Origin: Acidobacteriota bacterium
Lineage (GTDB): Bacteria; Acidobacteriota; Terriglobia; Terriglobales; Acidobacteriaceae
DNA length: 64,000 nucleotides
Assembly (NCBI GenBank): GCA_013289685.1
Contig: JABCZL010000001.1
Coordinates: 127,838 to 191,837, forward strand
Direction of reading: 5' to 3'
Shown here: piece by piece, positions 6,049 to 39,366 of the stretch
Layout: each line of letters opens with the position of its first letter
How positions within the stretch are numbered: the stretch's first letter is position 1
The notes under the pieces: model-generated
Databases searched by the model: none
Told to the model about the DNA's origin: nothing
Seen by the model: only the letters and a program-made list of their open reading frames with translations
Position numbers and translations under genes: made by a program

Positions 6049-6881
6049 AGGTTTTTCAGCGATAACCACACGACAGAATGGAATGAACTGGCGTTCGCCC
6101 ATCTCTGCTCAACCAGACCGTCTATGCGCGAACGACGTACTGAAATTCACGGCCAGCTGAAAAATCATTGTAACGTCTGGAGCGGCGCAGCGGCAACTTC
6201 TTCTACTGATCGGTCGTGGCTCAATTTGAAAGCCTTCGCCTACGTTGCGGCTTTAAAGTACGCGAAGAAATTCAAACTGAGCCACTACTTGTCGGTTGCG
6301 CCGCAGCTCCGCGTCGTCTCGTCGAATGACCCCCGCCGGACGCCCGTCGGAAATGCCGGCACGACCGTGAAAGAGCGGGCCCTTCAAGGGCCGCGTCGGG
6401 CGATACGGAAATCAGCCTGGGGTTCAAGCCCCCGTCGCCGCATCCGTAAACGCCAGCCAGATCGCAGCACCCTGAACCGGGATCAATTCTTTCGACAGGC
6501 GGTCGCTGGCCCCCCGCATCGCCTCCAACGCCCGGAGTAATTCTTTCCCGCAGCAAGCAATTCCTACCGTGCTGAAATCCGAATGAGCTCTTATTTTGAA
6601 CGATTTACGGATGGCAAGTCGCTTGCAACATTCTAGGCCAGACGAAGTGGCGCGCAACGGGGTGCTTCAGAGAATAACTTCGGCCAGAGGTTTTCTGTGA
6701 GCACCCCTTGCTTCTCCTCCAAGCGCAAAACAGCCCTCCCCCAGGCTGGTCTTGCATGCAGCATAGCTTGTGCGGAGCACCGCTTGGGCAAAGTAAAGCT
6801 TATGTGGGACGGACACTCCTGTCCGTCGCTTTTGAAGTTGATCTTGCCCTTGTTCTTCGCAGGAATCCTGAACCAATCCTC
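6049..6881. other. 833-bp intergenic region, mostly repeats
   Basis: No convincing gene. A family H repeat (GAAAGAGCGGGCCCTTCAAG, then GGGGTTCAAGCCCCC) is at about 6368-6433 and a family A copy at 6803-6830. A minus-strand open frame of 77 codons (6424-6657) has plausible codon use but no recognisable domain and ends inside the repeat. Confidence 0.5.
6803..6830 (+). repeat. Family A palindromic repeat
   Basis: TGTGGG followed by the 20-bp core GACGGACACTCCTGTCCGTC and a GC/TTTGA tail. The core folds into an 8-bp stem with a CTCC loop. It lies downstream of the minus-strand HMA-like gene. Confidence 0.85.
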
Positions 6882-9854: not shown

Positions 9855-9937
9855 AAATGCGGGACGGACACTCCCTTCGACTTCGCATCGAAAATCCCCA
9901 CTTCTCCCGCAAAGAACGCGCGAGAAATGGGGCACCC
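9855..9937. repeat. Mosaic of family A and family B repeats
   Basis: A half copy of family A (GCGGGACGGACACTCCC) runs into TTCGACTTCG, the core of the nested 26-mer seen at 37346-37371. A full family B copy follows (AAAATCCCCAC ... GGGGCACCC, 9891-9937) with an inner hairpin around CGCGCGAGAA. It lies between the ATPase and a convergent minus-strand gene. Confidence 0.75.
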
Positions 9938-12506: not shown

Positions 12507-12551
12507 GAATTTACGGGCCATGAACTTACGAGCTACGAATTCACGCGCCAT
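12492..12551 (-). repeat. Four tandem 15-bp units carrying alternative start codons
   Basis: On the minus strand the units are ATGGCGCGTGAATTC, GTAGCTCGTAAGTTC, ATGGCCCGTAAATTC and ATGGCTCGTGAATTG. Three of the four begin with an in-frame ATG, so the TPR protein could start at several points and its N-terminus (MARxF repeats) would change with copy number. Confidence 0.75.
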
Positions 12552-15500
12552 GCGATCGCGAGTTGCCATTGCCGTTCAAAACGCGCGCCAGATATTTTCC
12601 CGTGTAGGAGCCCGCCAGCTTGGCGATCGCCTCCGGCGGCCCCGCCCCCACCACCTTGCCTCCGCGGTTCCCGCCTTCCGGACCCAGATCGATTACCCAG
12701 TCGGCCGTCTTGATGACTTCCAGATTATGCTCGATGACCACAATCGATCCCCCTGCTTCAATCAGACGCCGAAACGCAGCCAGAAGTTTGCTGACGTCGT
12801 CAAAATGCAGTCCGGTCGTGGGCTCGTCGAAAATGTAAAGCAGTCGCCGCCTGACCCGCCCCTCACTTCCATCGCTCCGGTTCGCCTCCCGCGATGCCGG
12901 CTGCAAGTGCGCCGCCAGCTTCATGCGCTGCGCCTCGCCGCCCGACAGCGTAGTCGCCGACTGTCCGAGCCGCAAATATCCCAGCCCGACTTCTTCCAGT
13001 GTGCGCAGCTTCTCGGTAATCTTGGGCGCCTCGGCAAAAAACTTCAGCGCCTCCTTCACTGTCAGATTCAGCACTTCGTGAATATTCTTCCCGCGGTAGC
13101 GCACCTCAAGCACCGCCGGCTTGTAGCGCGTGCCCTTGCACTCCTCGCAAATCAATTCCACGTCCGCCAGGAACTGCATCTCCACCGTGACCGTGCCGTC
13201 GCCCTGACAAGTCTCGCAGCGCCCGCCGGGAATGTTGAACGAAAAATGTCCCGGCCCGAGCCCGCGCTTCTTCGCCTCGGGCAGGGAAGCGAACAGCTCG
13301 CGCATGGCATCGAACGCCTTGATGTACGTCACCGGATTCGACCGCGGCGTCCGCCCAATCGGCGACTGATCGACCAGCACCACTTCCTCGATAAACTGAT
13401 CGCCCTCCAAACTTTCCCAACTCGCGGCCGGCCCAGTCGCTCCGTTGCCAGTCTGCTGTTTCGCCTGAGCCAACGCCCGGTACAGCACCTGATGCAGCAG
13501 CGTGGATTTTCCCGACCCCGACACCCCGGTAATCGCCACAATCATGCCCAGTGGAATGCTGATGTCGACGCCCTTCAGATTATTGGCGCGCACGCCGCGA
13601 ATCCTGATCTGCTGCGCCCCCGGCTTCCGCCGCACCACAGGCGCTTGAATCCGCAAATCTTCCGAAAGATACCGCCCCGTCAGCGAAACCGGATTGTGCA
13701 CGATCTCATCGTAAGTCCCCTCGGCCACGAGCTTGCCGCCATTCTCCCCAGCGCCCGGCCCCAAGTCGAGAATCCGGTCCGCCGCCCGCATGATGTCCGG
13801 ATCGTGCTCGACCACCAGAATCGTGTTCCCCAGATCGCGCAGATCATGAAGAATCTTGATCAGCCGGTGCGTGTCCCGGGGATGCAGCCCGATCGACGGT
13901 TCATCCAGCACATACAGCGTCCCCACAAGCCGCGACCCGAGCGAAGTCGCCAGCTGAATCCGCTGCGCCTCTCCGCCCGACAACGTAGAAGACAGCCGGT
14001 CCAGCGTCAGATATTCCAGCCCCACATCGTTCAGAAATCGCAGCCGCTCGCGAATCTCCTCCAGCAGCTTCTCCGCGATCTCGCTCTCCTGCGGACTCAG
14101 CTCAACCTGCTCAAAGAATCGCAGCGCATCCTCCACCGTAAGCGCGCAAACCTCGCAGATATTTTTCCCGTTGACCCTGACCTGCCGCGCCTCCAGCCGC
14201 AGCCGCGACCCATTGCAGTCCGGACACAGCGAATACCCGCGATAGCGGCTCAGAAACACCCGCACGTGCAGCTTGTACTTCTTGCGTTCCAGGTGATTAA
14301 AAAATCCGCGCACGCCCAGAAACTTTCCTTCGCCCTTCAGCACCAGATTCTTGTGCTCCTCCTCCAGGTCAGCCCACGGCACATCCAGCGGAATCCCCGC
14401 TTGCTTGGCAAACCGCTTCAAATCCGTAAAGAGCGGGCGATACTTCGGTTTAGTCCACGGCTCAATCGGACAATCCGCAATCGTCTTCATCTTGTCCGGA
14501 ATCACCAGGTCGAGATCGAAGTCGATCGTGTTCCCAAACCCCTGGCACCGTGGGCAAGCCCCATAAGGATTGTTGAACGAAAAAAGTCGCGGCTCCGGTT
14601 CCTCATACCGTAAGCTGCAATCCTTGCACTCAAACCGCTGCGCAAACCGCAATGTGGGAGGGACACTTCTGTCCGTCGCCTTTGCAGTTGCTGTTGTCTT
14701 TGCAGTTGCCTGCTCGCCAGATTCCTCCGACTCCGGAATCTCAAAAATAACCTCGCCCGCTTCCCGATAAGCCGTCTCAATCGCATCGACAATGCGTGTC
14801 CGAGCCTCCGCCGAAACCACCAGCCGATCAACCAACACAAAAACGGGCTCCGAAAAATTGATGTCGAGCAAAGACTCCGGCGTGGAGAACTCATAAACCT
14901 CCCCCACCTGGTAAAGCCGGTTGAACCCACTCTTCCGCAAATCAAACAGCCGAGTCTTCAGCGCATCCGTCAAAGCGGGTGCCCCACCCTTCTCGCGCTT
15001 TTCGCGAGAGGGTGGGGATTTTGACTTCACCACCTGCAAGCCAACGTTTCGCGCAGTCTTAGCCGATTCCTGCCCTCCCACCCCGCTCCGCTGCAACGGA
15101 AACAGCACCTGCAGCCGTGTCTCCGGATCCAGCGCCAAAATCGCGTCCGCGACTTCGTCGACTGTATCCTTCTTCACCTCGCGTCCGCACTTCGCGCAAA
15201 ACGTCCGCCCCACCCGCGCAAACAGTAGCCGCAAATAGTCATAAATCTCGGTCGCCGTCGCTACCGTCGACCGCGGGTTCCGCGTCGTATTCTTCTGCCG
15301 GATCGCCACCGCCGGCGCGATCCCGTCAATGGTGTCCGCGTCCGGCTTCTCAATCCGTTCCAGAAATTGCCGCGCGTACGCCGACAAAGATTCCACATAC
15401 CGCCGCTGCCCCTCGGCATAAATCGTGTCAAACGCCAGCGACGACTTGCCCGAACCGGACACGCCAGTCACCACCGTCAACGAATTGTGGGGAACCTCAA

Positions 15501-15591
15501 AATCAATATTCTTGAGGTTATGCACGCGCGCGCCGCGTACGACAATGCTTTCCGTGGGAGTCAAGACAGCCTGCGTAGATTCAGAAGACAT
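12541..15591 (-). CDS. uvrA: UvrABC excinuclease subunit A
   Basis: 1016 aa, longer than the usual 940-970. UvrA is the damage-recognition ATPase of nucleotide excision repair, a cytoplasmic dimer that loads UvrB. Seen: Walker [13 protein letters not shown] (43-54), FCAKCGR zinc module, two ABC signatures (LSGGEAQR twice), second Walker [12 protein letters not shown], and [13 protein letters not shown]. Two stretches are repeat DNA in frame: residues about 189-207 ([14 protein letters not shown], family B) and about 295-313 (TDRSVPPT plus Ala/Thr/Lys repeats, family A). Both lie in the ATP-binding I/insertion region, outside the motifs, so the protein is probably active. A perfect TATAAT at 15671-15676 marks the promoter. 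Confidence 0.96.
14652..14680 (+). repeat. Family A repeat inside uvrA
   Basis: TGTGGGAGGGACACTTCTGT then CCGTCGCC, slightly diverged from consensus (G-T wobble, CTTC loop). It continues into two TTTGCAGTTGC-type units. It is read in frame on the opposite strand by uvrA. Confidence 0.8.
14978..15027. repeat. Family B repeat inside uvrA
   Basis: GGTGCCCCACCC ... TCTCGCG-CTTT-TCGCGAGA ... GGGTGGGGATTTTGAC. The inner hairpin is perfect and the outer arms also pair. It contributes about 17 codons to UvrA without breaking the frame. Confidence 0.85.
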
Positions 15592-19569: not shown

Positions 19570-19587
19570 AATGCTTTGAACACCCTC

Positions 19588-25600: not shown

Positions 25601-26040
25601 TCATTCGGATCGAGCGCCACCCACCCAATCGAATACGATCCCTCGCCATCGAACACCGGAGTCCACGTCGTCCCGTCATTCACCGTCTTCCACACTCCGC
25701 CCGACGCTACGCCCACGTAATACTCAAACTTGTTCCGCGGATTCACCGCCACCGACATCACCCGCCCCGAAGCCGCCCCCGGCCCAATCGACCGGAATTT
25801 CAGCCCCGAAAAAGTGTCCGCGTTCATCCCCGGCTTCTTTTCGTCCGTGTGGGGCGGACACTCCGGTCCGCCGCCTTTGCAGTTGCTCTCTTTCGCCTCG
25901 TCCTTCTTCGTGTCCTTCTTAGCTTCTTTCTTCTGCGCCGCAGCCGTAGAAGCCGTATTCTTGTCCGGCGCCTGTTGGGCAGCGAGCGGCGTAATCAACG
26001 TCAGGGATAAAAATAAAACAAACGTGGCGAACGATTTCAT
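22636..26040 (-). CDS. Exported BNR/sortilin-like beta-propeller repeat protein
   Basis: 1134 aa from the ATG at 26040, with GGAG 6 nt upstream. A signal peptide (FVLFLSLTLITPLAA) and Lys/Ala-rich linker lead to many BNR/Asp-box units such as SVDGGKSWENLG, SADGGKTWKAAL, STDAGATWNKL and SSDKGATWERR, forming one or two beta-propellers like VPS10/sortilin and exo-sialidase-type folds. A C-terminal helical region (about 950-1134) follows. Very common in Acidobacteriota; substrate unknown and no catalytic residues can be assigned. Residues 54-65 (CKGGGPECPPHT) are encoded by an in-frame family A repeat. Confidence 0.85.
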   Translation of the reverse strand: MKSFATFVLFLSLTLITPLAAQQAPDKNTASTAAAQKKEAKKDTKKDEAKESNCKGGGPECPPHTDEKKPGMNADTFSGLKFRSIGPGAASGRVMSVAVNPRNKFEYYVGVASGGVWKTVNDGTTWTPVFDGEGSYSIGWVALDPNDASVVWVGSGESNSQRSVSYGDGVYRSVDGGKSWENLGLKKSEHIGRVVVDPRDSKVVYVAAEGPLWGAGGDRGLYKSADGGKTWKAALTISENTGVVDVAIDPANPDIVYAAAYQRRRHVYTLIDGGPESAIYKSTDAGATWNKLKSGLPSVDMGRIGLAVSPADPNVVYATVEAADGKGGIFRSSDKGATWERRNEFDSGAMYYARVVADPKNVDRIFVMSVQLRESLDGGKTLRKVNETNHHGDNHAMWIDPDDTKHWLLGSDGGMYETWDDAKTWEFKANLPTVQFYDVAVDNALPFYNVCGGTQDYFSWCGPSRTRDLNGIVNSDWFVTTGGDGFRSQVDPVDPNTIYSESQYGVLVRYDKPTGQELVLQPLEGKGEPPLRWNWDSPIIVSPHSHTRLYFAANKLFRSDDRGDTWKAISGDLTRQIDRNKLPVMGKVWGPDAVAKNQSTSFYGNIVALAESPKKEGLLYVGTDDGLIQVSGDGGANWTKYEKFPGVPEMTYVSRLAASSHDAGTVYAAFENHKNEDFKPYLLKSTDMGKTWTSIAGDLPENGPVLAFAEDTVNPNLLFAGTEFGAYFTIDGGAHWVRLKGGLPTIAVRDMVIQAREGDLVIATFGRGFYVLDDITPLRQMKAESTEQAAAVFPVKDALLYVERHPLGGPKKGFLGDAFYTADNPPYGAVFTAYMKEKFKTKKEKRQEAEKDAAKKNQTLAYPTKDELRAEAEEAKPEVYFVVYDETGAAIRRVEGSTEGGFQRVAWDLRYSAPQVKKHSDDGEEDFPDAADQGPLVLSGTYSVRMFDKVGGVVTELAGPQSFKVVTLGATGMSAENRAAQEEFLRKVTRLYRAVSGALHTAEDVESRLKAIREALREVPAAEKQLGSVADSLEARDREILRALRGDVEIAKRQEPVASSIHDRVNSAMDGERFSLAKPTQSHVDSYNIAAGEFAEQLGKLRTLVEVDLSKLEKDMEAAGAPWTPGRVPEWSEK
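25847..25876 (+). repeat. Family A repeat inside the BNR protein gene
   Basis: TGTGGGGCGGACACTCCGGT then CCGCCGCC followed by TTTGCAGTTGC. It is read in frame on the minus strand, in the linker after the signal peptide. Confidence 0.8.
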
Positions 26041-26745: not shown

Positions 26746-26822
26746 TGTGGGACGGACACTCCTGTCCGTCGCCCTTGACGTTGATCTTGATTCGGTTCGA
26801 TGTGGAGCGGGCGCCCCGCCCA
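26746..26822 (+). repeat. Family A repeat followed by a family E palindrome
   Basis: TGTGGGACGGACACTCCTGT then CCGTCGCC (26746-26773), then GATGTGGAGCGGGCGCCCCG (26797 onward). Confidence 0.8.
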
Positions 26823-27925: not shown

Positions 27926-27953
27926 TGTGGGGCGGACACTCTTGTCCGCCGCT
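27926..27953 (+). repeat. Family A repeat (GC variant)
   Basis: TGTGGGGCGGACACTCTTGT then CCGCCGC. It begins 5 bp after the pdxS stop. Confidence 0.8.
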
Positions 27954-28899: not shown

Positions 28900-28927
28900 T
28901 GTGGGGCGGACACTCCTGTCCGCCGCC
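28900..28927 (+). repeat. Family A repeat (GC variant)
   Basis: TGTGGGGCGGACACTCCTGT then CCGCCGCC, tail TTTGACTTTG. It starts 5 bp after the DUF1223 stop. Confidence 0.85.
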
Positions 28928-29516: not shown

Positions 29517-29544
29517 TGTGGGGCGGACACTCCTGTCCGCCGCC
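29517..29544 (+). repeat. Family A repeat (GC variant)
   Basis: TGTGGGGCGGACACTCCTGT then CCGCCGCC, tail TTTGACTTTG. Confidence 0.85.
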
Positions 29545-29722: not shown

Positions 29723-30355
29723 ATGATGATAGGAGTCCTCGCCCTGCAGGGCGATTTCGACGCCCACCGTCGCCGGCTCGAGGAGCTAGGCGCCGAAGTT
29801 CTGCTCGTTAAAAAGCCCGAGCAACTCGACCTCATCGATGGCCTCGTGATCCCCGGCGGCGAATCCGGCACTTTCCTCAAACTTCTGGGCGACGCCGGAT
29901 TCGAAAAGCTGAAACAATTCGTCCGCCTGAAGCCCACCTTCGGCACCTGCGCCGGCGCAATCCTTCTGGCTACTGAAGTCGAGAATCCCCAACAGAAAGG
30001 CCTCGGCGCGCTAAACATCCGTATCCGCCGCAACGCCTACGGACGCCAGATCGACAGCTCCATCCGCGAAGGCCAGTTTGTGGCCCGCCACCAGTCCGGC
30101 GATCCTCACGACGCAGCTCTGCGCGAGTCCCCACTCGAAATGGTCTTCATCCGCGCCCCCAAAATCGAGCACGTCGGCGAAGGCGTCGAAATCCTCGCCA
30201 CCGAAGGCAGCGACCCGGTCGCCGTCCGGCAGGGAAGAGCCATGGCCGCCACTTTCCACCCCGAACTCTCCGCCGACACCCGCGTCCACCAGGCCTTCCT
30301 CGATTTGTGTGGGACGGACCTGTGTGGGACGGACACTCCTGTCCGTCGCCCTTGA
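29723..30355 (+). CDS. pdxT: Pyridoxal 5'-phosphate synthase glutaminase subunit PdxT, repeat-extended
   Basis: 210 aa. Class I glutamine amidotransferase feeding ammonia to PdxS. Seen: GVLALQGDF start, PGGESGT (45-50), nucleophile Cys76 in GTCAGAILLA, and the His179-Pro-Glu181 pair (TFHPELS). The natural protein should end near residue 194 (HQAFLDL). Residues 195-210 (CGTDLCGTDTPVRRP) come from a tandem family A repeat that has replaced the original stop. The extension is short and far from the active site, so activity is likely kept. Confidence 0.94.
   Translation: MMIGVLALQGDFDAHRRRLEELGAEVLLVKKPEQLDLIDGLVIPGGESGTFLKLLGDAGFEKLKQFVRLKPTFGTCAGAILLATEVENPQQKGLGALNIRIRRNAYGRQIDSSIREGQFVARHQSGDPHDAALRESPLEMVFIRAPKIEHVGEGVEILATEGSDPVAVRQGRAMAATFHPELSADTRVHQAFLDLCGTDLCGTDTPVRRP
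30307..30350 (+). repeat. Tandem family A repeat forming the pdxT 3' end
   Basis: A truncated copy TGTGGGACGGACC is followed at once by a complete one (30323-30350). The pdxT frame runs through both and stops at TGA just after the core. Confidence 0.85.
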
Positions 30356-30820: not shown

Positions 30821-30862
30821 TGTGGGACGGATTATGTGGGACGGACACTCCTGTCCGTCGCC
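30821..30862 (+). repeat. Tandem family A repeat
   Basis: A truncated TGTGGGACGGATT unit is followed by a full copy at 30835-30862, the same truncated-plus-full layout as at the pdxT end. Confidence 0.8.
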
Positions 30863-30979
30863 TTTGACTTTGTTCTTGATTTTGATCTTGTGGATTTTCA
30901 CAGCCAAGCCTGTTCATCCGTCACAGACAACGTCGCCGAACTTCATCTGTAATGGTCTTCATGAAACCCAAGATCAACA

Positions 30980-31528
30980 GCGACGGACAGGAGTGTCCGT
31001 CCCACATGGGTCTCGAACGGATGTACGAATATCGCCGCAAGCTCCCGCACTACCAGCCTGCAGGGCGACGACTGTTCATCACCTTCCGAAAGAACTGTAG
31101 CGACTCTTTCCCGCCGCACGCCCGGGACCTCGTGCTGCAGCACTGTCTGCACGATCACGGAAAGCGCTACGAGCTTCACGCCGTGGTCGTGATGCCCGAA
31201 CATGTGCATCTACTCCTCACTCCGTTGCGCGACGAGAATGGCTGGCCTTTCGGCCTGCCCTTCATTCTGAAATCGCTCAAGGGAGCATCGGCAAGAAGTG
31301 TGAACCGATTTTTAGGTTCGAGCGGCCCAGTCTGGCAGGAAGAATCGTTCGATCACGTCCCCCGTACGCAGGAAAGCTTCGAAGCAAAGCTGGAGTACAT
31401 CCGCCAGAACCCCGTTCGTCGAGGTCTGGTTCAGAAACCCGAAGACTATCCATGGCTCTGGCTCGAACCCGGCTGATCATTGAAATATGGCACTCAACAA
31501 TGTGGGACGGACACTCCTGTCCGTCGCC
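30980..31528 (+). mobile_element. REP-associated transposase unit: RAYT gene bracketed by inverted family A repeats
   Basis: The gene at 31006-31476 lies between an inverted family A copy (30980-31006) and a direct copy (31501-31528). This layout, a RAYT gene flanked by opposed REP palindromes, is what is known of REP/RAYT units. The element likely mobilises or once spread family A through the genome; that is inference. Confidence 0.75.
31006..31476 (+). CDS. REP-associated tyrosine transposase (RAYT, Y1 family)
   Basis: 156 aa from the ATG at 31006, whose first bases belong to the family A repeat (CCCACATG). Y1/HUH single-strand nuclease fold: YELHAVVVMPEHVHLLLTPL with the His66-x-His68 metal motif, LPFILKSLKGASARSVNRFL helix, VWQEESFDHVPR, and catalytic Tyr131 in LEYIRQNPVRRGLV. 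The protein is complete with all three catalytic residues, so it may be active. RAYTs nick and join REP hairpins in single-stranded DNA. The surrounding repeats are the likely substrate. Confidence 0.9.
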   Translation: MGLERMYEYRRKLPHYQPAGRRLFITFRKNCSDSFPPHARDLVLQHCLHDHGKRYELHAVVVMPEHVHLLLTPLRDENGWPFGLPFILKSLKGASARSVNRFLGSSGPVWQEESFDHVPRTQESFEAKLEYIRQNPVRRGLVQKPEDYPWLWLEPG

Positions 31529-31665
31529 TTTGACTTTGGTTTTGATCCTTGAAGGTGATTGGTTCTTGGGGGCTGGGGACAGCAAACGCAAGATCAAGAA
31601 CGACAAGATCAAAATCAAGACCAGGATCAAAGTCAAAGGCGACGGACAGGAGTGTCCGTCCCACA
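31501..31665. repeat. BIME-like pair of inverted family A repeats
   Basis: A direct copy (31501-31528, tail TTTGACTTTGGTTTTGATCC) faces an inverted copy (31638-31665, preceded by GGATCAAAGTCAAAGGC). The tails also pair, so the 165-bp unit could fold into one long hairpin with two terminal palindromes. It lies between the RAYT gene and miaB. Confidence 0.85.
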
Positions 31666-34542: not shown

Positions 34543-34570
34543 GGCGACGGACAGGAGTGTCCGTCCCACA
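34543..34570 (-). repeat. Family A repeat
   Basis: Inverted orientation: GGCGACGGACAGGAGTGTCC then GTCCCACA. It lies 16 bp after the glycosyltransferase stop. Confidence 0.85.
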
Positions 34571-35363: not shown

Positions 35364-36383
35364 TCAACGGCGACGGACAGGAGTGTCCGTCCCACATAAC
35401 ACAATCTTGGGATGGAATAAGGTCCCGGCTACACGAGTGGCGATGGCGATCAGGTCGCGTTGACTGGCGAAGACTTTGACCTGGGGGGCGCGGGAGAGGT
35501 CGGGGAGGTTGACGGTGCGTCCGCTGCGGATGCGGGCGGCGGTGGGTTCGTCGGCGGTGACGCAGGGGAGGTTGGGGAGAAGTTTCCGGGGATGGACGAA
35601 AAGGGCTTCCAGAGGGTCAAAATCCCCACCCTCTCGCGAAGAACGCGAGAAGGGTGGGGCACCCGGCGAAACACGAGGTCCCTCCACTCCGCCTTCCGTT
35701 CCGTTCGGGAGCGGAAGGCTCCGGTCGGAATGACATTGATCTGCCGCGTTGGCTAGTTCTTCTAGCTTGTGGGCGTCGTCTATGGTGAACTCGGCTACTG
35801 AAGTGCGGCGCAGGGACTCCAGGTGCGCGCCACAGGCCAGTTCCCTTCCCATGTCGTGGGCGACGGCGCGCATGTAGGTTCCGGAGGCGACGCGGGCGCG
35901 AAAACGGACTCGGTCGACGGCGACTTCCAGGATTTCGAATTCTTTGATCTCGACCTGGACCGGCTGCAGGTTTACTTCTTTTTGCTGGCGGGCGAGCTTG
36001 TAGGCGGGGACACCTTTAATTTTCTTGGCTGAGAATGGGGGCGGAGTTTGTTGGATAATTCCTCGGAAGCGAGCGGCTGCGGCTTCGACTTCTTCGGCAC
36101 GCAGGTTTACCGGCTGCGCGGTGGTCGTGGGGTCACCGTCGGCGTCATAGGTGTCGGTTGCGAAGCCGAAGCGGATAGTCCCTTCGTAGGTTTTTTCCGA
36201 TGCCGTATAGAACTGGGCCAGGCGGGTGAGGCTGCCGGTAACCAGCGGGAGGACTCCCGTTGCCATGGGATCGAGAGTGCCGAGGTGGCCGATGGACCGT
36301 TCGTGGAGAATGCGGCGGGCGCGGTTGACCACGTCGTGCGAAGTGAGTCCGGCGGGCTTGTCGATGATGAGGACGGCGTTCAT
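35364..36383 (-). CDS. truB: tRNA pseudouridine(55) synthase TruB with three repeat-derived insertions
   Basis: 339 aa from the ATG at 36383. TruB makes pseudouridine 55 in the tRNA T-loop. Catalytic Asp38 is in GTLDPMATGVLP; KxxGVPAYKLAR and RVASGTYMRAVAHDMG are also typical. Three parts are repeat DNA in frame: residues about 216-231 (CHSDRSLPLPNGTEGG, family D), 238-256 ([18 protein letters not shown], family B) and 330-339 (CGTDTPVRRR, family A, replacing the native stop). All are outside the catalytic core, between it and the C-terminal PUA-like domain or at the end. Confidence 0.94.
   Translation of the reverse strand: MNAVLIIDKPAGLTSHDVVNRARRILHERSIGHLGTLDPMATGVLPLVTGSLTRLAQFYTASEKTYEGTIRFGFATDTYDADGDPTTTAQPVNLRAEEVEAAAARFRGIIQQTPPPFSAKKIKGVPAYKLARQQKEVNLQPVQVEIKEFEILEVAVDRVRFRARVASGTYMRAVAHDMGRELACGAHLESLRRTSVAEFTIDDAHKLEELANAADQCHSDRSLPLPNGTEGGVEGPRVSPGAPPFSRSSREGGDFDPLEALFVHPRKLLPNLPCVTADEPTAARIRSGRTVNLPDLSRAPQVKVFASQRDLIAIATRVAGTLFHPKIVLCGTDTPVRRR
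35370..35396 (-). repeat. Family A repeat forming the truB 3' end
   Basis: Inverted orientation, GACGGACAGGAGTGTCCGTC core. The truB frame enters it from upstream and stops inside its flank. Confidence 0.85.
35619..35735. repeat. Family B and family D repeats inside truB
   Basis: Family B at 35619-35664 (AAATCCCCACC, inner TCTCGCG/CGCGAGA hairpin, GGTGGGGCACC). Family D at about 35685-35735 with TTCCGTTCC ... GGAGCGGAA and GGTCGGAATGAC, the same GTCATTCCGA end as at 40757 and 55547. Confidence 0.8.
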
Positions 36384-36514
36384 GAGATGATTGGGTAATT
36401 TGGTAATTGAGTAATTGTGTAGATTAAGAGGACACGGAAGGCGCGACCAGGTTTTCAATTACAGAATTTCTCAATTACACAATTACCCGATATTCCTAAC
36501 TTACCAGACCTGCC

Positions 36515-37254: not shown

Positions 37255-37387
37255 AGAATCCCCACCCTCTTTCGCAAAGAACGCGAAAGAAGGATGGGGC
37301 ACCCAGCAAATCAAGAAAGCAAGCAACGTCAAAGCCGACGGACAGAGCCTGCCCTGAGCGAAGTCGAAGGGAGTGTCCGTCCCACAC
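37255..37387. repeat. Family B repeat followed by a family A repeat with a nested 26-mer
   Basis: Family B at 37255-37304. Then an inverted family A copy (37334-37387) is split by GAGCCTGCCCTGAGCGAAGT plus CGAAGG (about 37346-37371), placed exactly in the loop between GACGGACA and GAGTGTCCGTC. Confidence 0.8.
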
Positions 37388-39268: not shown

Positions 39269-39366
39269 CTAGCAGGCCAATCCAGGCACGTCTTTTTCTG
39301 CGGCAGTCCCTGACGCGCGCGTTAGGGACGGACGCATTCCTGCGTCCGGGCGGACTTACGCGGCCG

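Follow-up and report, generated by a model that had tools for sequence, protein, structure and literature searches.

Genes for RAYT proteins have been reported always to lie between two inverted REPs with GTAG or GTGG heads, and orthologous rayt genes keep their position while the flanking REPs change and their palindrome is kept (Nunvar 2010, PMC2817692). The same report describes an accumulation of REPs near the rayt gene in some genomes. In-frame intragenic GTAG/CGTC REPs, single or paired, are also on record, often in DNA repair genes and including uvrA of O. terrae and Thioalkalivibrio (Di Nocera 2013, PMC3733652). Bracketing of a RAYT gene and REPs within genes, which a first-pass annotation of the present DNA had treated as potentially new, have thus both been described before in other bacteria (PMC2817692, PMC3733652). 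The locus examined here very probably represents a known kind of system, a REPtron composed of a RAYT and the REP family that it serves, in an acidobacterial genome. Its features within the window, the whole 64-kb stretch of DNA that was analysed, are as follows.

31006 to 31476, plus strand: RAYT (TnpAREP) gene, 156 aa from the ATG at 31006, with H66-V-H68 and Y131
30982 to 31005, minus strand: REP that immediately precedes the RAYT start codon
31502 to 31525, plus strand: REP downstream of the RAYT gene, its tail continuing to about 31541
30836 to 30859, plus strand: REP, outer left partner, inverted pair with 30982 to 31005 (spacer 122)
31641 to 31664, minus strand: REP, outer right partner, inverted pair with 31502 to 31525 (spacer 115)
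30860 to 30892, plus strand: example of a phase-locked tail, GCC(NTTGNN)5, after a REP stem
6804 to 6827, plus strand: REP copy, intergenic
9857 to 9875, plus strand: truncated REP copy
14654 to 14677, plus strand: REP copy in frame within uvrA (ORF 12541 to 15591, minus strand)
25849 to 25872, plus strand: REP copy near an ORF 5' end
26747 to 26770, plus strand: REP copy, intergenic
27927 to 27950, plus strand: REP copy just past a pdxS-like ORF
28901 to 28924, plus strand: REP copy, intergenic
29518 to 29541, plus strand: REP copy, intergenic
30324 to 30347, plus strand: REP copy over the 3' end of a pdxT-like ORF (29723 to 30355)
34546 to 34569, minus strand: REP copy, intergenic
35372 to 35395, minus strand: REP copy over the 3' end of ORF 35364 to 36458 (minus strand)
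37362 to 37385, minus strand: REP copy disrupted by other sequence

The open frame around the RAYT gene (30952-31476, plus strand) codes for a Y1 transposase that the NCBIfam model NF047646 (REP_Tyr_transpos, 'REP-associated tyrosine transposase') recognises by a narrow margin, at 81.7 bits against a cut-off of 80; the Pfam model Y1_Tnp remains below its threshold (17.4 against 23). Numbered from the ATG at 31006, the protein contains H66-V-H68, WQEESFDH and Y131 within YIRQNP. H68 is invariant in an alignment of 26 sequences including the window, in which H66 and Y131 are conserved in at least 90%, and both histidines are invariant in a second alignment (n=23), with Y131 again at 90% or above. 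The AlphaFold model has a pLDDT of 86.8 and a pTM of 0.82, residues 1-16 being poor, and the best PDB match of the predicted fold is 4er8, the structure of a TnpAREP (RAYT) in complex with a REP hairpin (E 4.8e-9, TMq 0.63, rmsd 3.8). A profile search of solved proteins likewise returned 4er8 as the best relative (E 8.9e-10). The ATG at 31006 stands directly 3' of the REP copy at 30982-31005, as in CCCACATG; because similarity to relatives begins only at about 31012, it is a likelier start than the second in-frame ATG further upstream, at 30952. A REP just upstream of the likely start codon also occurs in the correctly oriented relatives L011, L016, L028 and L061. These results agree with the first-pass annotation, which had described an intact RAYT gene with an HxH metal motif and a catalytic tyrosine, starting inside one copy of the repeat termed family A and ending near another in opposite orientation.

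Family A is a REP with a GTGG head, an 8-bp stem (GACGGACA/TGTCCGTC) and a 4-nt CTCC loop. The window contains 14 copies with at most two mismatches, which together with the disrupted copy at 37362 and the truncated copy at about 9857 make 16 loci, the number given earlier as a minimum; none of 20 first-order Markov random sequences produced a match at up to five mismatches. The genome-wide count that had been called for gave 102 copies at up to three mismatches in 6.85 Mb (48 contigs), against 0 for the reversed control pattern. Copy-by-copy statistics on heads, stems, tails and gene context rest on the 100 listed of these 102 copies. Heads are GTGG in 98, GTAG in one and GTCG in one. Stem variants are compensated, pair 1 being G-C, A-T or C-G, pair 2 A-T, G-C or T-A, and pair 6 A-T or G-C, so that these three varying pairs are Watson-Crick in 98, 96 and 100 of the 100 copies, respectively. 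Family A is a REP family by its GT[AG]G head, its short stem with perfect pairing, its many copies and their mostly extragenic location.

Several individual copies show further peculiarities. Those at 9857-9890 and 37362-37385 are both broken after the first arm by CCCTTCGACTTCGC..., which resembles parts of the hairpins that some relatives carry at their fpg and uvrA sites; perhaps one repeat is nested in another there. The C-terminal residues of the pdxT-like ORF 29723-30355 are REP-encoded (...GTDTPVRRP), with the stop just after the hairpin, and ORF 35364-36458 (minus strand) likewise stops 8 nt beyond its REP.

Close family A pairs (<300 bp) are inverted with heads outward in 16 of 17 cases, with spacers of 54-122 bp. 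The two stems are identical in 13 of the 16 inverted pairs, against a mean of 7.3 when partners were shuffled, and only 2 of 2000 shuffles reached 13. These inverted head-out doublets are REPIN-like pairs.

The association between family A and this RAYT is visible at several scales. Within 5 kb of the gene lie 11 copies where 0.15 are expected, and one 10-kb stretch holds 10 merged events, against a random maximum of 5 in 2000 placements. GAC stems, the type found at the RAYT, account for 8 of 12 copies near the gene and 15 of 88 elsewhere (P 7e-4). At four other Y1/RAYT places of the same genome, no family A copy was detected at up to five mismatches in their 3.3-3.4 kb loci. Another RAYT-like gene of this genome (L007, G000:C20, about 1501-1803) has nearby hairpins of its own, GTAGCGCCGGCGTCCCGCCGGC (twice) and a variant. 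With every locus turned to RAYT orientation, matching GT[AG]G hairpins occur on both sides in 35 of 45 RAYT loci, the window included, and form an inverted pair in 26; under the criteria applied, the other 10 do not have such a match across the gene. Across 44 loci, similarity of the RAYT and similarity of the hairpin are correlated (Mantel r 0.54, 0 of 5000 permutations; uncorrected for species phylogeny).

Co-distribution was assessed in 150 genomes of the family, including the genome under study, 127 of which encode proteins matching the RAYT at E <= 1e-3. At least five family A copies are present in all 11 genomes with a RAYT at E <= 1e-60 (own genome included) and in 23 of the 139 others, a comparison uncorrected for phylogeny. 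The first-pass annotation had named equal abundance in relatives without a RAYT as evidence against the association. Abundance proved unequal, as at least five copies are reached in 22 of the 38 genomes whose best RAYT match is at E <= 1e-35 but in only 12 of the 112 that lack such a match (again uncorrected for phylogeny); family A is less abundant without the RAYT, yet persists there, those 12 genomes carrying 5-24 copies. Conversely, 16 of the 38 genomes with a close RAYT have fewer than five family A copies. Loci were read for 11 of these, and the RAYT is flanked by other GT[AG]G hairpins on either side in 10 and on one side only in L035. The association of a RAYT with cognate REPs, invoked earlier as general knowledge, is well supported for this gene by copy number, clustering, covariation, flanking hairpins, family model and fold.

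According to a codon model, the 100 copies comprise 72 intergenic, 14 at an ORF 5' end, 5 at a 3' end, 8 internal and 1 unclear, labels that depend on the model and on ORF choice, the 14 5'-end cases being mostly a matter of start-codon ambiguity. The eight internal copies lie within ORFs that have coding signal on both sides and, in 8 of 8, Pfam matches: UvrA, a beta-lactamase-family protein, PanC, a GidA/TrmFO-family protein, 3HCDH-ECH, Fpg, SIS-CBS and RNB-S1. For 3HCDH-ECH, SIS-CBS and RNB-S1, the REP falls between the best domain stretches of the protein. Four of the eight (UvrA, Fpg, PanC and TrmFO-like) were aligned to solved proteins, and each shows a break in the alignment at the REP. 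Residues 282-314 of UvrA face 11 residues of solved UvrA, REP and tail occupying about 293-313, and residues 67-114 of Fpg face 2, both REPs lying at about 70-111; in the sequence of this one genome the fpg insert is filled by a whole REPIN. PanC residues 114-133, which hold a REP and its tail, face no residue of the solved protein, and the TrmFO-like protein (L209, G000:C9) has extra residues 155-216 facing 6, with the REP as only part of the insert. In-frame insertion of REPs within genes, as read from these alignments, is real. The earlier proposal of a link between the RAYT and in-frame insertion thus stands at sequence level for the insertions themselves (8 of 100 copies inside ORFs, four of them checked against solved proteins), and this very RAYT is their putative maker.

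Two other repeated stretches deserve mention. Another palindromic repeat (families D4/D5) lies inside uvrA at window positions 14975-15024 (about residues 190-206), in a second gap relative to solved UvrA (residues 173-214). D4/D5 repeats recur at 19586, 19648 and 49167, and D4 also at 39364 and 49871; stretches like 14975-15024 are found elsewhere in this and related genomes at 89-98% identity. A stretch of some 90 bp that lies upstream of fpg (L223, about 843-933) has many matches, mostly at 77-89% identity, both in this genome and in related ones, and ARAGORN found no tRNA in L223.

For the intragenic copies alone, it is a serious possibility, somewhat short of an even chance, that they are old, vertically inherited segments instead of insertions made by this RAYT lineage. 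The sites were compared, for each gene, in the 19 same-genus relatives with best-matching loci of 40 searched. An insert is present at the fpg site in 17 of 19 (short in 2), and varied, often REP-like inserts occupy the uvrA site in 13 of 19 (short in 6); those insertions therefore predate this species, which speaks for inheritance. Against it stands panC, whose 63-bp insert consists of a REP and, in tandem with it, a degraded REP-like copy; the site is empty in 18 of 19 relatives and holds a degraded form of the insert in G184. The fpg-site hairpins also differ between species, for example GGCGGACA in G000 and G082 and CGCGGGCG in G153. At panC, uvrA and fpg, conserved genes with and without a REP at a given site can be compared as they occur in nature, which is useful because, to our knowledge, REP movement has rarely been observed directly.

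It is highly improbable that the palindromes act mainly as regulatory or terminator-like RNA hairpins under selection and lie near the RAYT incidentally. The intergenic position of 72 of the 100 copies and a hairpin predicted just upstream of the RAYT start codon would suit such a role, but the clustering at the RAYT, the covariation of RAYT and hairpin and the in-frame copies inside genes argue against it. The folding energy of the RAYT leader is also ordinary (z -0.39), and a special RNA switch formed by the hairpin directly upstream of the start codon is not supported, since 61 of 200 shuffles fold as well.

The position of the gene adds to the comparison. In 20 same-genus genomes besides the window, hand-picked from 40 and partly for their RAYT match, so that the count is no frequency, a RAYT stands upstream of miaB in four (G123, G143, G171 and G185), and none was seen there in the other 16 within the 1-6 kb read. 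The genes of G143, G171 and G185 have no stops in the matched stretch, and that of G123, with one stop and its first 35 residues unmatched, is decaying. At this site the window and G123 share the stem GACGGACA, G143, G171 and G185 have GTCGGACA, and the palindromes are kept. The genome under study yields three matches to the RAYT protein, and among the matches listed there is only the gene itself and no second close copy. Four other Y1/RAYT loci without family A, and the miaB site shared with some relatives, fit one gene per REP type in a stable position. If the palindromes were its own ends, the locus could be a classical IS200/IS605-type element transposing as a whole, which would share the HUH/Y1 fold class and explain the bracketing; this reading is very improbable, given the lack of a second close copy among the matches listed, the place next to miaB in 4 of the 20 relatives inspected (one copy decaying), about 100 palindromes standing without such a gene, and an IS200 model (NF033573) score of 13.9 bits against the 81.7 of NF047646.

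The REPtron reading draws on features of the sequences themselves: the intact gene, the predicted fold, the bracketing, the abundance, conservation and pairing of the palindromes, their local clustering and covariation with the RAYT, a position common to some relatives and the in-frame copies. Binding, cleavage and mobilisation by this protein may be proposed by analogy. The RAYT would be an HUH-type single-strand DNA nuclease with one catalytic tyrosine that, like its characterised relatives, binds the GTGG and the 8-bp hairpin in single-stranded DNA, cleaves beside the hairpin and then rejoins the strands. REPs and head-out pairs (REPINs) would thereby be copied or moved, preferentially near the RAYT and mostly between genes. 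The RAYT gene itself would stay put while the repeats move; the hairpin sequence changes along with the RAYT.

A further feature of family A is the tail behind the stem, GC[CT](NTTGNN)n, in which GC[CT] precedes a run of hexamers that carry TTG as their second to fourth letters, in a phase locked to the hairpin. TTG occurs at tail hexamers 1-8 in 65, 53, 38, 23, 13, 6, 3 and 2 of the 100 copies, with a maximum of 6 at other offsets; the first hexamer lacks it in 35. When the 126 hairpins that flank 44 RAYT loci were scored for TTG in two or three of their first three hexamers, 27 qualified in this phase and none at seven other offsets. A GTRG hairpin followed by such a tail was matched in 30 of 150 genomes, which represent 20 of 79 genera, and the reversed control pattern had no match in any of them. 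The 182 tail hexamers include 34 different ones, and growth of the tail by slippage or stepwise is likely because adjacent hexamers of one tail match beyond expectation (1.256 against 1.033; 0 of 1000). In L019, L050 and other relatives, hairpins of another kind are followed by a tail of a second type, AAAAGGCTGG or AAAAGCCGG, sometimes near TTG-tailed hairpins of the same RAYT. In the parts of the REP literature searched, which took in few subscription papers, no description of the GC[CT](NTTGNN)n tail was found.

The dinucleotide at +2/+3 after the stem is CC in 45 and CT in 23 of 100 copies. Other REPtrons are reported to cleave at CT, and one did so at CC after its guide had been changed to GTGG, such changes having failed in two others (PMC8266576). 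The predicted cut site of the present system is, by analogy, the CC or CT at +2/+3, where the TTG tail begins; the match of tail start and cut site is a prediction because cleavage was placed at CT or CC by experiments on other REPtrons. Pairing between REPIN halves was rejected as the main cause of the tail, as likeness within pairs is 0.532 against 0.516 and 352 of 2000 shuffles are at least as high. A coding constraint would fit poorly, the conserved TTG spanning a third codon position while other positions vary. A pre-existing microsatellite target is weakly excluded: 10 of 12 places with (TTGNNN)5 runs adjoin a listed REP and two (C7, C24) do not, in a search that gave 27 matches, many from one array on C21, against 12 for the reversed control. 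A tie to this RAYT clade is not supported either, as G001 and G080 carry the tail and their best RAYT matches reach only 3.8e-14 and 5.4e-10. A more speculative and rather unlikely proposal is that the element has two parts, a hairpin that tracks the RAYT and a phase-locked tail starting at the predicted cleavage dinucleotide, and that the RAYT cycle creates or preserves this tail, for instance through repeated cleavage and rejoining in 6-nt steps or as an array of docking or target sites; a growing, frame-neutral tail would then ease in-frame insertion. The tail is a simple, testable feature that may reveal where and how RAYTs cut.

Compared with the described RAYT/REP units (PMC2817692), the arrangement, heads, kept position and local build-up are alike, and the acidobacterial lineage and the REPs with a TTG hexamer tail are different from what is reported there. 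The HUH and Y motifs, a short perfect hairpin and a GT[AG]G foot are shared with the REPtrons among the TnpAY1 classes (Quentin 2018, PMC6006769). Class 3, which the same source reports for Acidobacteria, has a CnGA foot and Y----Q, whereas the GTGG foot and YIRQNP found here are not those of class 3. TIRYT genes of K. versatilis and other Acidobacteria are related Y1 transposases of the same phylum but, as described, are flanked by terminal inverted repeats instead of GTAG REPs, unlike this RAYT (PMC3733652). As in the REPINs of Bertels and Rainey (2011, PMC3116915), inverted REP doublets enclose a spacer, although here the spacers of 54-122 bp consist partly of TTG tails, which are no more alike within than between pairs. 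The intragenic copies correspond to those of PMC3733652 in being in frame, single or paired, and present in uvrA; its section on intragenic REPs, supplement aside, does not name fpg or panC, and an empty panC site is documented here. What marks this REPtron as a variant is the tail with its fixed phase, together with the intragenic sites in panC, uvrA and fpg, which are well resolved. The system, in which RAYT and hairpin clearly covary, belongs to a large acidobacterial family where proteins matching the RAYT are common.
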